Origin: Hyphomonadaceae bacterium
Lineage (GTDB): Bacteria; Pseudomonadota; Alphaproteobacteria; Caulobacterales; Hyphomonadaceae
Reading direction: 5' to 3'
Length of the DNA stretch: 64,000 bases
Assembly (NCBI GenBank): GCA_028285145.1
Contig: JANQQC010000062.1
Span: forward strand, 1-64,000
How positions within the stretch are numbered: the stretch's first letter is position 1; each line of letters opens with the position of its first letter. The position numbers and the translations under genes are program-made. Of this stretch, positions 3,990 through 61,630 are shown piece by piece. The notes beneath the pieces are model-generated. The model was not told where the DNA came from and searched no databases. It was given only the letters and a program-made list of their open reading frames with translations.

Positions 3990-4798
3990 TGAGCAGCGTG
4001 GCGATTCCTCTGGTCGCGGCCGTGCTGATCTGGTGGTCGAGCACGGGCGCGCTCCTTTGGTTGGTCCAGAGAAACCGCTCCACTCACAAATGGGTGGCAG
4101 CGGTCGCCACACTTTCCGTGCTCGCAGCCACCGCCAGCGTGGTCGCGGTGCGGGACGTCACCTCGGTTTCAGGGGCCTATGCCGGGTTTGCCATCGGCAT
4201 CGCGCTCTGGGCCTGGCACGAAATCATGTTCCTGTTCGGGTATGTTTCCGGCCCTCGCCGGACACCCTGCCCGCCAGACCTTAAACCGTGGCGGCGTTTC
4301 TTCGCATCGACGCAGACCGTCATTCATCATGAGCTCGCAATTGCCGGTCACGCCATCATTATCCTCGCGTTGAGCGTTGGCGCGGCAAACAGCTTCGCCG
4401 CACTCACCTTCGTGCTTCTATGGGTTATGCGGCTGAACTCGAAAATGGTCGTGTTCTTTGGCGCTCCAAACATCTCAGATGAGCTGCTGCCAAGACATCT
4501 GGCCTATCTGTCGAGCTATTTCGGCAAGAAGCGGATTGCACCGCTCTTTCCCGTTTTGATCGCCATCGCGACCATCATTGCATTGGCGCTCGTTTACCAG
4601 GCCGCAACCCTTCCGATCGGGTCCTTCGAATCGACCGGTTATCTGTTGCTGGCTGCGCTTGCGACACTCGCCGTTCTCGAACACTGGGCGCTGGTACTGC
4701 CAGTTCCAGACACTGCGCTATGGGCATGGGCCCAGCGAAAGGATCAGCCCGCTGTTCCTATCGCGACCAATAAGACAACAAAGTATGGGAGGATCTGA
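3989..4798 (+). CDS. puhE: PuhE membrane protein (DUF3623)
   Basis: 269 aa with about seven hydrophobic helices spread over its length and the typical stretch [20 protein letters not shown] after the second or third helix. PuhE lies between acsF and hemA in most proteobacterial photosynthesis clusters and modulates reaction-centre and bacteriochlorophyll levels. It begins on the last base of the acsF stop codon, so it is translated from the same message. Confidence 0.92.
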
Positions 4799-15219: not shown

Positions 15220-16542
15220 TCACGCCAAGTCCGATAAATCTAGCACCTTGAGCAGCGCCTCACGAGCCGTCAGACACTCATTTGCTAAGTCGGGATCTGC
15301 AAGATCTGCCGGTGCCAGGCGATCGCGGTATGTGCCGCGAACAACGTTCTGAAGCGCATTGATTCGATCATCGTCCAGAAAAACGCCCTGATGTGCCGCT
15401 TCACGTTCAGCCTCGGTCATGACGACCCTTAAACGCAGGCAAGCTGGTCCGCCACCATTTCGCATGGACTGACGCACATCGACATATTGAACCCGGCCAA
15501 TTGGACCATTGCCAGAGACCATGCCGTCACAGAAGCGGCGTGTGCTCTTTGTTTCCTGCGTTTCTAGGGGTGCGACGAGTACAAGCCTGTCTTCACCAGG
15601 CATCTGAAGAAGCTGCGAATTGAAGAGGTACGACCTGATTGCATCCTCAATAGGGACATCCGCCTGAGACACCATGACCGGCTTCAACTCAAACAGACCC
15701 TCACCGGCTCGCTTCAGAGAGTCGAGCGTATCTTCGGTGTTTTCGAAAGCAAGTTCGTGGAAAAACAGCGCATCGCGTGCGCCGACGCAGACGACATCGT
15801 TGTGGAAGGCACCGGCATCAATCGCTGCCGCCGCCTGCAAAGCCATCACTGTGCGGCCTTCAGTTAATCCGTGCCCACGGGCGACGCTCTGACTGGCAAG
15901 CAAGGTTTGGCGAGCCGGGAAATTCGTCGATGCGACGGCATTGTCCCGACCATAGACGAATAGTTCGACACCGGCCGCACCATGTTCGCGACATAGCCGA
16001 ACGTGATTGGCCGCTCCTTCATCCGCAAAGGCTGAGTGCATCGGCAAAGCAGGATGAACAGCAAAACGGTTCTCATCAGCAAAAACGGCCTGAAGGGTTG
16101 CGGTAGTATCGGTATGCTCAATCGAGCGGTGAAGCATCGTCGAGAGATTGGCAGTCGTTAGATGAAGCCGGCCGTCGCCCGTATCGGCTGACGGGGAGAC
16201 CGTTGCTGCGTTAGCCGTCCACATGTTGCTCGCGGAGTATGCTGCCTTGAGAATTGCCGGCGCTTTATTGGCCGCGGCTTCGATAATCTGCGCGTCGGTT
16301 CCCGTGAAACCGGCCGAGATGAGCAGGTCGAAACTCGGGCGCGGAAGCGATGGTAGCACACCTTGGATGAGCCCGGCGTGCATCATCGCACGCATCTTCT
16401 CCAACCCCTGCAAAGCAGCTTCGCGAGGGTTCGATACGTCGCCAGCATTGCTCGCGCTGGCGAGATTCCCATCTGAAAGGCCGCCATAATTGTGAGTCGG
16501 GCCGATCAGCCCATCGAAGTTCACTTCCGTCGCATTGCTCAT
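15220..16542 (-). CDS. astB: N-succinylarginine dihydrolase
   Basis: 440 aa, normal length. The opening NFDGLIGPTHNYGGLSDGN is the family signature, and NGGGPACLRLR near residue 365 carries the catalytic cysteine. AstB removes two ammonia from N2-succinylarginine in the arginine succinyltransferase pathway of arginine use. No other ast genes lie in this window, so they must be elsewhere or missing. It is the last chromosomal protein gene before the prophage. Confidence 0.96.
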   Translation of the reverse strand: MSNATEVNFDGLIGPTHNYGGLSDGNLASASNAGDVSNPREAALQGLEKMRAMMHAGLIQGVLPSLPRPSFDLLISAGFTGTDAQIIEAAANKAPAILKAAYSASNMWTANAATVSPSADTGDGRLHLTTANLSTMLHRSIEHTDTTATLQAVFADENRFAVHPALPMHSAFADEGAANHVRLCREHGAAGVELFVYGRDNAVASTNFPARQTLLASQSVARGHGLTEGRTVMALQAAAAIDAGAFHNDVVCVGARDALFFHELAFENTEDTLDSLKRAGEGLFELKPVMVSQADVPIEDAIRSYLFNSQLLQMPGEDRLVLVAPLETQETKSTRRFCDGMVSGNGPIGRVQYVDVRQSMRNGGGPACLRLRVVMTEAEREAAHQGVFLDDDRINALQNVVRGTYRDRLAPADLADPDLANECLTAREALLKVLDLSDLA

Positions 16543-16641: not shown

Positions 16642-16728
16642 TGGTGCGGACGGCCGGGATTGAACCGGCAAGGCCTTACGGCCGGCAGATTTTAAGTCTG
16701 CTGCGTTTACCAATTTCGCCACGCCCGC
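16642..16728 (-). tRNA. tRNA-Leu (anticodon TAA)
   Basis: 87 nt including an encoded CCA (16642-16644). The acceptor stem GCGGGCG pairs with CGTCCGC (one G-U). The anticodon stem GCAGA/TCTGC holds the loop with TAA, and a long variable arm GGCCGTAAGGCC marks a leucine tRNA. The T arm has GGTTCAATCCC. The first 41 nt, through the anticodon loop, lie inside the 42-bp prophage repeat, so this gene is a hybrid: its 3' half is original chromosome and its 5' half plus upstream region come from the prophage. Confidence 0.97.
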
Positions 16729-16729
16729 A
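16688..16729. other. attL core (42-bp repeat)
   Basis: Matches 61068-61109 base for base. It spans the anticodon loop to the first base of tRNA-Leu plus one base beyond. The bases on either side differ (16687 A versus G at 61067; 16730 C versus A at 61110), which fixes the ends. Confidence 0.95.
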
Positions 16730-16926
16730 CACCGGGAAACCCCAATAACCACGGGCGTTTGCGGCCCGTTGAGCGCCTATAACACAGATTCCGTGTTCGG
16801 GAACGGGCGGGAAACAAACCCGGTGTTGCTGAACCGGGTCCCCGAAATAGTCCCGAAGCCTGTTCCCCCACCGTTCACGCGGCCCTCGCCGCATGACCCA
16901 ACAATCTAACAACTGAGGAGAAGAAG
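16730..16926. promoter_or_regulatory. Left attachment arm and new tRNA upstream region
   Basis: Phage DNA without a gene. It must supply transcription of the hybrid tRNA-Leu on the minus strand; the best -10 candidate is TTATAG at 16777-16782 (minus), without a good -35. TCCCGAA-type heptamers occur at 16796-16802 (inverted) and 16851-16857, and the stretch 16841-16861 is 20/21 identical to 60990-61010, as expected for integrase arm sites. An inverted repeat, ACCCGG/CCGGGT, lies at about 16818-16839. A GGAG site before 16927 serves the first phage gene. Confidence 0.5.
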
Positions 16927-59796: not shown

Positions 59797-60128
59797 CCGG
59801 GGCGCTCCTCACATATGCTGACGTCACCGAGCTCTTGGGCGTGGACGAAAAGACCGTTCGCGGTATCGTGGAGAAGGGTCAGCTTCCGCGCATTGTCATT
59901 TCAGCAAGGTGCATCCGCTTTGATCCGCAGGATGTTCAAGCTTTCATTGAGGGGGCGAAAGAGTGTCCGTCTATCGAAAAGGCCGCTTCTGGCACTACGA
60001 CTTCCAATACCAGGGCCGCCGCTTCTACGGTTCGACGGGGCAGGAAACAAAGCGCGCCGCTGAAACCGTGGAGCGCGCAAAACGACTTGAAGCCGCGACC
60101 GGCTCCCATGACGACGCGAGCAAAATGA
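59793..60128 (+). CDS. Excisionase-like HTH protein
   Basis: 111 aa from a GTG in a GTGA overlap. Residues 4-53 (LLTYADVTELLGVDEKTVRGIVEKGQLPRIVISARCIRFDPQDVQAFIEG) form a MerR/AlpA-type winged HTH as in phage excisionases. The rest is a basic disordered tail that overlaps the integrase start by 166 bp. It would bend attL/attR DNA to favour excision. Confidence 0.75.
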   Translation: MTGALLTYADVTELLGVDEKTVRGIVEKGQLPRIVISARCIRFDPQDVQAFIEGAKECPSIEKAASGTTTSNTRAAASTVRRGRKQSAPLKPWSAQNDLKPRPAPMTTRAK

Positions 60129-61054
60129 CCGTTGAAGCCGCCGCCAACCGATACTGGATTGAGATCGGGTCGGACTTGCGCGGAGCTCGGAACGTCGAAC
60201 GCCAACTGCGCGTCATGATGACCTGCGTTGGACCTCAGAAGCTTTTGAAGGAAATCAGCACGCCGGACGTGGTGGACGCCATCTCGCGCCGGCGCGGCAT
60301 GGATCTGGGGCGTGGAGCTCCATCAAAGACGACCGTTAACCGGGACATTATTGATTCCACGCTCCGGCCGATTATGAACCGAGCTCGGAAAGTGTGGGGC
60401 GCGCGCGGACTGTCAGACATCGATTGGGCGGCGGTGCGCTTCACTGAGCCTGAACCCGAGCATCGGGAGTACACCCCTACTCAAATTGAAGCGTGGAAAT
60501 CTGAGCTCGATCCGATTCCGCGTTTCGCATTGCACCTGCTGCTTCGCTATGGGCTACGGTTGTCGGAGCTTAATTTTGATCCGCGCGACGTGGACGGCGA
60601 AGGTGGCCGCCTGACAATCCGGGGCAAGTCTCGAAAAAGCGGTGCCGTGCTAATCCTGCCGCTCTTGGAGGAGGATGCGCGCATCCTGGCCGGGCTCGCT
60701 GGGCGCGCAATCGCGATGGGCTTGCCGACCGTCTGGTTCTATGGTGATCCACCGCAAAGCTATAAGGGGGACGCTCTGGGGCGTGTTCTGAGGCGCACTG
60801 GAAAGTCCGCCGGGCTCGACATGGGACGGCTTGTCCATGGAGCTCGACACCATGCTGGAACACAAATTCTAAGGAGGACAGGCAACCTGAAACTTGCGCA
60901 GCGTCTTCTGGGCCATGCGAGCATCCAATCCACGGTGCGATATGCCCATGCGACTGAGGCCGATCTGAGGGACGCGCTTGACGACCTGTCCCGAAATGGT
61001 CCCGAAGCCTCCGATGGGGACCTTGATAACCCGTTGAAGCGAAAGGAGAATTGA
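59963..61054 (+). CDS. int: Tyrosine site-specific integrase
   Basis: 363 aa from a GTG. An N-terminal arm-binding domain (VYRKGRFWHYDFQYQGRRFYGSTGQETKRAAE), a core-binding domain (~60-145), and a catalytic domain with R in YGLRLSEL, H-x-x-R in HGARHHAGT, and the last H and Y in LLGHASIQSTVRYAH. The stop lies 14 bp from attR. Placed after the excisionase in overlapping frames, so the two are made together. Confidence 0.96.
   Translation: MSVYRKGRFWHYDFQYQGRRFYGSTGQETKRAAETVERAKRLEAATGSHDDASKMTVEAAANRYWIEIGSDLRGARNVERQLRVMMTCVGPQKLLKEISTPDVVDAISRRRGMDLGRGAPSKTTVNRDIIDSTLRPIMNRARKVWGARGLSDIDWAAVRFTEPEPEHREYTPTQIEAWKSELDPIPRFALHLLLRYGLRLSELNFDPRDVDGEGGRLTIRGKSRKSGAVLILPLLEEDARILAGLAGRAIAMGLPTVWFYGDPPQSYKGDALGRVLRRTGKSAGLDMGRLVHGARHHAGTQILRRTGNLKLAQRLLGHASIQSTVRYAHATEADLRDALDDLSRNGPEASDGDLDNPLKRKEN
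60989..61010. repeat. Putative integrase arm sites at the right end
   Basis: Two TCCCGAA heptamers at 60989-60995 and 61000-61006, within the end of int. The stretch 60990-61010 is 20/21 identical to 16841-16861 on the other side of attP. Confidence 0.5.
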
Positions 61055-61067
61055 GATGCTGTCAACG

Positions 61068-61109
61068 GATTTTAAGTCTGCTGCGTTTACCAATTTCGCC
61101 ACGCCCGCA
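61068..61109. other. attR core with stranded 5' half of tRNA-Leu
   Basis: 42 bp identical to 16688-16729. It holds tRNA-Leu positions 1-41, without the 3' half, so any transcript across it cannot form a tRNA. Confidence 0.95.
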
Positions 61110-61118
61110 ACGGTCAGA

Positions 61119-61148
61119 GCCATAGACGTTGTGACCGCTGACGCGCAA
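61119..61148 (-). promoter_or_regulatory. Stranded native tRNA-Leu promoter
   Basis: On the minus strand TTGCGC (61143-61148), 18-bp spacer, TATGGC (61119-61124), placing +1 a few bases before the old tRNA 5' end (61108). It was the promoter of tRNA-Leu before insertion; it now reads into int antisense. Confidence 0.55.
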
Positions 61149-61180: not shown

Positions 61181-61630
61181 ATGAAGACGGCGCTCCCTAT
61201 CGCATGGTTCGTTCTTGTTGTGCTTGTTGTTGCGGGCACGCTGACCCGCATTCTTATGGCCGACCCGGCACAGACGGTTCAGATCGCACTTATAACGTTA
61301 CCGTCAACACTAACGGGCGTTCTGTGGATGGCCGGAACGGCCCTCGCTTACCTTTTTGCTATCAAGACCGTTTCAAACATCGCAGTTGCCATACTCGGTT
61401 TCGTGCATTTGTTCTTTGCGGCAATCGCGAGCCTAAGCGCGTTTGCCGGAGGCCGCCTACAAGATTCGATGATGGCAAATGGAGATTTCTCCAACGCAGA
61501 CATGCTGGGAGCATTCTTCGGTGCTAGCGGTCTGACGAACGCAATTGGTGGCTTACTGTTTATCGCGGCGATGATTGTCGCGATCGTATCGGCACCGAAA
61601 ACTGCTGAGAAAACCGAAACTTTCGGCTAG
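61181..61630 (+). CDS. Four-helix membrane protein, unknown function
   Basis: 149 aa with four hydrophobic helices (about residues 5-27, 36-58, 64-90 and 112-138). First chromosomal gene to the right of the prophage; before insertion it lay next to tRNA-Leu. DUF-type inner-membrane protein; no functional motif recognised. Confidence 0.7.
   Translation: MKTALPIAWFVLVVLVVAGTLTRILMADPAQTVQIALITLPSTLTGVLWMAGTALAYLFAIKTVSNIAVAILGFVHLFFAAIASLSAFAGGRLQDSMMANGDFSNADMLGAFFGASGLTNAIGGLLFIAAMIVAIVSAPKTAEKTETFG

Follow-up and report, generated by a model that had tools for sequence, protein, structure and literature searches.

The stretch of 64,000 nucleotides analysed here (the window; 64 kb) contains a single tRNA gene, an intact tRNA-Leu(TAA) on the reverse strand at 16642–16728, which was identified with ARAGORN and scores 59.6 bits with the Rfam tRNA model. 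The first 41 positions of this gene and the base at position −1 form a 42 bp att core (16688–16729, reverse strand) that is repeated on the same strand at 61068–61109 (42/42 bp identical by BLAST, E = 3e-15), as an earlier note on this DNA had proposed. The core ends at tRNA position 41, just 3′ of the anticodon, which is consistent with a crossover within the anticodon loop. Phage genes fill the interval between the two copies (16730–61067; 44 338 bp, plus one core copy for the complete element), and PHROGs matches there include terminase, portal, major head, head closure, tail fibre, primase/helicase, primosomal protein, NinB-like protein and integrase. Together with the Pfam matches and the att repeats, these assignments confirm a tailed-phage prophage of about 44.3 kb. 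The tyrosine integrase gene (int; 59963–61054, forward strand; PF00589, E = 1e-15; phrog_1, E = 1e-36) ends 13 bp before the distal repeat and is therefore placed tail-to-tail with the tRNA fragment. Host genes lie outside the element on both sides, with astB at 15220–16542 and genes for a thiolase and an enoyl-CoA hydratase beyond 61645. ARAGORN, run on the 64 kb window, reads no second tRNA inside the prophage.

The displaced 5′ fragment and the intact tRNA thus occupy opposite ends of the prophage in the same orientation, with the fragment upstream of the tRNA and the integrase-bearing element in between. The prophage is on the upstream, promoter side of its target, in agreement with the earlier note. 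At attL the tRNA joins a phage-borne 5′ half (16688–16728) to a host 3′ half (16642–16687), and the copy at attR is the stranded host 5′ half of tRNA-Leu(TAA).

The order of the empty site was reconstructed from 105 genomes of the family, among which the genus of the window is represented by a single genome; the relatives belong to Hyphomonadaceae (Henriciella and others) and Caulobacteraceae. A host ORF on the forward strand beyond the distal repeat (61181–61630; homologue query 61181–61627) has a homologue in 17 family members besides the window genome, and in 16 of these 17 an intact and divergent tRNA-Leu(TAA) lies about 60–450 bp from it (in one of the 16, reading the gene requires an intron). 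In the reconstructed empty site, the sequence from 61110 onward accordingly lies upstream of the tRNA. No convincing match to 16730–16926 as host DNA was found in the 105 genomes; beyond the window, the best match covers 40 bp at 80% identity, at the equivalent place in the arm of the G012 prophage. The refuting observation named in the earlier note, a relative whose tRNA is preceded by this sequence, was thus looked for in these genomes, and the outcome favours the note. In 21 relatives examined for the empty site there is no tRNA within about 1.5 kb of astB, from which it follows that the left flank has been rearranged and that the synteny comes from the right flank only. A conventional arrangement that we have misread, in which the tRNA kept its promoter at 16730–16926 and the DNA beyond 61110 is phage or unrelated, would suit the position of 16730–16926 beside the intact tRNA, like a native upstream region, but is scarcely credible: it is refuted by the synteny, 16730–16926 carries arm motifs common to other prophages, and a host-type tRNA promoter is present from 61110 onward. 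Synteny and promoter score (see below) thus bear out the statement of the earlier note that the intact tRNA owes its 5′ half and everything upstream of it to the phage, with the native promoter at attR.

The syntenic locus is itself variable. At seven loci (L036, L040, L041, L043, L044, L046 and L048) the tRNA-Leu(TAA) is a different, 84-nucleotide gene, as if the tRNA had been exchanged in place, and this version is matched at 93% by the tRNA half in the L052 virus. In L039 (genome G076; about 2340–2660) ARAGORN reads tRNA-Leu(TAA) only with a 234-nucleotide intron, and the region before the 3′ exon is group I intron-like; a search for a group I intron in the tRNA-Leu of G071 and G076 gave no Rfam match at the gathering threshold.

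The earlier note had suggested counting further tRNA-Leu(TAA) genes. The assembly, a draft of 67 contigs with a completeness of 99.88%, yielded 38 tRNA genes with one Leu(TAA), the gene at attL, and one Leu(CAA); the single copy refers to this assembly, in which a gap might hold another. Of the two codons that the note had assigned to this tRNA, TTA stands, but dependence on it for TTG does not, because tRNA-Leu(CAA) can also read TTG; UUA decoding alone hinges on tRNA-Leu(TAA). A simple ORF picker applied to a sample of about 0.24 Mb gave a UUA frequency of 1.37 per 1000 codons; 71 of 203 host ORFs and 12 of 42 prophage ORFs contain the codon. With a sole tRNA-Leu(TAA) found and UUA present in about a third of the sampled genes, the lysogen must transcribe the attL tRNA, and from phage DNA. 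We infer that in the living lysogen this transcription begins in phage DNA, so that the phage-borne stretch upstream of the tRNA (16729–16926, reverse strand) must either hold its promoter or transmit transcription from one.

A generic sigma-70 scan gave nothing useful for locating promoters at the two ends, and a tRNA-promoter model was therefore built from the genome's own tRNAs. This two-box model, trained on the upstream regions of 36 other tRNAs of the same genome, converged on CTTGAC-N17-TAT. The native flank at attR scores 9.2 bits (CTTGCGC-N18-CTATGGC), a value that falls among those of the other tRNAs in this genome and is reached by 3.0% of random phage windows and 2.4% of random host windows. 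The predicted promoter lies on the reverse strand at 61119–61148, with a −35 element TTGCGC (61143–61148), an 18-nucleotide spacer and a −10 element TATGGC (61119–61124), and ends 10 nucleotides before the tRNA half. On this evidence the attL tRNA is clearly cut off from its predicted native promoter, which is now stranded at attR.

By the same model, which covers activator-dependent or extended −10 promoters poorly and in which a low score does not equate to absence, the phage flank shows no recognisable tRNA-type promoter within 65 bp of the core (−0.6 bits, shuffle p = 0.96). Over the first 150 bp the highest-scoring site reaches 5.0 bits and is unconvincing; it is TTATAGG, part of an extended −10 sequence TGTTATAGG (hexamer 16776–16781, reverse strand) 47 nucleotides before the tRNA. 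A second weak candidate element on this strand is TATTGG (16742–16747). The earlier proposal of a phage-supplied promoter is thus upheld in that the upstream DNA is phage-borne and the native promoter is lost, but the promoter itself is not recognised in the flank. A phage-supplied promoter would be right by necessity and is strongly favoured by analogy, though undetected in the window.

The phage flank also contains sequences that are shared with the other end of the prophage and with related phages. A putative arm-type Int site in the left arm, TTCGGGACTATTTCGGG (16841–16863, reverse strand), recurs in the right arm at 60990–61012 (reverse strand), within the 3′ end of int; the two blocks are identical at 20 of 23 positions, compared with a best value of 17 among 59 random pairs of phage stretches. 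Alignment reveals a conserved GTTCCCGAA block in the left arm (16796–16804, reverse strand), a putative second arm site that appears as GTTCCCG in the flanks of the G012, G063 and G110 prophages. In all four prophages at tRNA-Leu(TAA) (window, G063, G012 and G110) TTCGGGACTATT-CGGGAC is found about 100–120 bp from the core and GTTCCCG about 65–75 bp from it, both with changes in G110, and the motif of the first arm block is also present in Val-tRNA phages of sphingomonads. The repeats flanking the core are interpreted as arm-type integrase sites, which would make the phage flank in the window an attP arm. At the left end of the G012 prophage (L089), about 190 bp upstream of tRNA-Leu, there is a sequence similar to the 3′ half of a tRNA with a CAT anticodon, perhaps the trace of an earlier attachment site.

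Genome scans of relatives place tRNA fragments mostly 10–130 bp after int. Two kinds of fragment occur, 5′ halves in antisense to int (Leu TAA, Leu TAG, Pro and Val) and 3′ halves in sense with it (Arg, Met, Pro, Gly, Ser and Thr), as labelled by BLAST matches to a tRNA library, a few of the 3′ cases being short matches. The anticodon end faces int in both arrangements, so that one geometry combined with a near-palindromic anticodon arm explains both halves; by this geometry, the phage would have to carry whichever half of the tRNA is on its far side. The comparison supports an integrase subfamily that targets tRNA anticodon loops in either orientation. On a 49-row integrase tree, a quick tree with SH-aLRT support only, the half label changes at least five times, with three of the changes forced by starred branches. 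The window integrase belongs to a clade of Leu(TAA) phages that comprises six rows and has branch support; the other lysogens of this clade at tRNA-Leu(TAA) are G012, G063 and G110.

The promoter model was also applied to 5′-half cases at other tRNAs. Flank pairs were scored for 12 cases, 11 at Val or Pro and one at Leu(TAG), with the intact tRNA and the stranded half in one genome; in six genomes (G413, G414, G416, G418, G422 and G019) the two ends are on different contigs, and the flank is taken to come from the phage. All of the scored phage flanks come from 5′-half cases. Among the stranded flanks, including those of the window, G012, G063 and G110, 15 of 16 score at least 8.2 bits (Fisher combined shuffle p = 5e-12). 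The phage-borne flanks of the Val, Pro and Leu(TAG) cases reach at least 8.7 bits in 11 of 12 (Fisher combined shuffle p = 5e-11), and the Val phage flanks typically carry CTTGACG-16/17-GTAAT about 17 nucleotides before the tRNA. The flanks of the Leu(TAA) clade (n = 6) are not significant (combined Fisher p = 0.20). The comparison supports the view that 5′-half members usually have a host-like tRNA promoter in attP, between Int-arm-like sites and the core. The Leu(TAA) clade departs from this pattern, with a predicted promoter that is degenerate or unrecognisable. A generalization drawn from the Leu(TAA) cases, that all 5′-half phages are without promoters, was dropped because the Val, Pro and Leu(TAG) cases have them.

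Two apparent attP members of the Leu(TAA) clade, L170 and L052, have GTGAC(T/A)-N17-GTA(A/G)ATG, scoring 8.0 and 6.7 bits, respectively. The order in the apparent attP of L170 is int, arm, 5′ half, promoter-like element and arm, and by eye the phage flank of the window looks like a diverged form of the L170/L052 element. In L052, an IMG/VR contig, the promoter and tRNA 5′ half of the apparent attP (about 4160–4240) are inverted relative to int in comparison with L170 and the window. In Novosphingobium sp. SG751A (G415; L254 and L271) both flanks are identical over 48 bp upstream of tRNA-Pro, promoter included. The att repeat there spans the promoter, and integration is therefore promoter-neutral; the 48 bp identity suggests that such phage promoters may have been captured from hosts.

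Taken as a whole, we consider it very probable that a phage in reversed orientation occupies the sole known tRNA-Leu(TAA) and that the tRNA is transcribed from phage DNA. A temperate tailed phage would integrate by means of its tyrosine recombinase at the anticodon loop of tRNA-Leu(TAA) in reversed orientation, so as to lie on the promoter side, with attP bringing the tRNA 5′ half. Recombination would leave a rebuilt tRNA preceded by phage DNA at attL, and at attR the host promoter and the former 5′ half would be stranded and directed at the 3′ end of int. The tRNA would then be transcribed from 16729–16926 or from deeper in the phage, probably by a diverged or weaker form of the tRNA promoter, while the stranded host promoter would transcribe the half-tRNA and then int in antisense. 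Of this scheme, the sequence itself establishes the presence of the repeat and of the prophage, how the empty site was ordered, that the assembly has one copy of the gene and that the predicted native promoter has been lost.

An alternative source of the tRNA is weak or leaky transcription from deeper in the prophage, with no dedicated promoter in the phage flank and little tRNA-Leu(UAA) being tolerated where UUA is rare. The low score of the flank and the low frequency of UUA would both accord with this, as would the structural genes, which are on the reverse strand and directed toward the tRNA, but the phage ORFs closest to the tRNA (16927 and 17270) point away from it, UUA is used in about a third of the sampled host ORFs and other 5′-half phages have a promoter at the matching place. 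We regard this alternative as unlikely, although it is the strongest of those considered.

Transcription from the stranded promoter would run through the 41-nucleotide half and enter int from its 3′ end. On that strand no site resembling an intrinsic terminator turned up between the promoter and int, so that an antisense transcript into int is geometrically possible. The stranded promoter could then be regulatory, with antisense RNA against int stabilizing the prophage in the lysogen. The 5′ half is antisense just after int in nearly all of the 5′-half cases examined, and the retention of a promoter by almost all of the stranded flanks scored would also agree with such a role. However, the phage promoter in attP would point in the same direction before integration, so that the antisense would not by itself be a lysogeny switch and need not be specific to lysogeny, and the cassette is inverted in L052. 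A regulatory role is somewhat less likely again than leaky transcription. Still more doubtful is a combined version, in which a strong host promoter on the sole UUA reader is swapped for a weak or phage-controlled one, making UUA-containing genes lysogeny-dependent, while the antisense silences int and locks the prophage in.

After phage integration, control of the target tRNA normally stays with the host. A paper from 2002 reportedly concerns, going by its title, a reversed target orientation as in the window, and overlap with the promoter point made here is likely. Among the 3919 islands in Islander, 3760 have 3′ and 159 have 5′ tDNA fragments (Hudson et al., 2014; PMC4383910), and according to a review a recombinant bacterial tRNA keeps its original promoter 'with very few exceptions' (PMC8371274); both sources agree with the earlier note that integration on the promoter side is rare. 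The Islander islands with 5′ fragments are like the window in having the element on the promoter side, a displaced 5′ fragment and an integrase aboard (PMC4383910). The window element is thus a rare but already known kind of integration. The Islander paper makes no mention of promoters, whereas the present analysis scored promoters on both the stranded and the phage-borne side and traced the integrase subfamily. A limited literature search found no description of a subfamily-wide 5′-half habit with tRNA promoters borne on attP.

Two further systems are comparable. As summarized in the review, archaeal pTN3-like integrases use the 5′ half of a tRNA as attB (tRNA-Leu in T. nautili), and the regenerated tRNA receives a promoter from the element, as we infer for the window; in that account integration divides int, whose promoter then serves the tRNA, whereas in the window int is whole and tail-to-tail with the core (Cossu, 2017, via PMC8371274). 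In the tRNA-dependent lysogeny of mycobacteriophages (Guerrero-Bustamante and Hatfull, 2024; PMC10865867) an essential tRNA likewise relies on phage-borne DNA. There, a core of about 10 bp does not rebuild the host tRNA; integration destroys it, and the phage brings a complete tRNA of the same isotype to take its place; in the window a 42 bp core regenerates the host gene. Elsewhere in the family, a host tRNA-Leu(TAA) is split at the anticodon loop by about 1.1 kb in which no integrase was seen (L093:1445–2651; genome G071, C10:99944–101150). The insert contains a complete divergent tRNA-Leu(TAA) (1717–1801) and one ORF, and resembles a minimal version of a tRNA-dependent element.

A single-copy, essential-looking tRNA would thus be transcribed from viral DNA in this bacterium, and lysogeny could alter the reading of UUA. 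Decay of the prophage end beside the tRNA would be selected against. More widely, the comparison suggests that the reversed orientation is common in one alphaproteobacterial integrase subfamily, usually with a replacement tRNA promoter inside attP.
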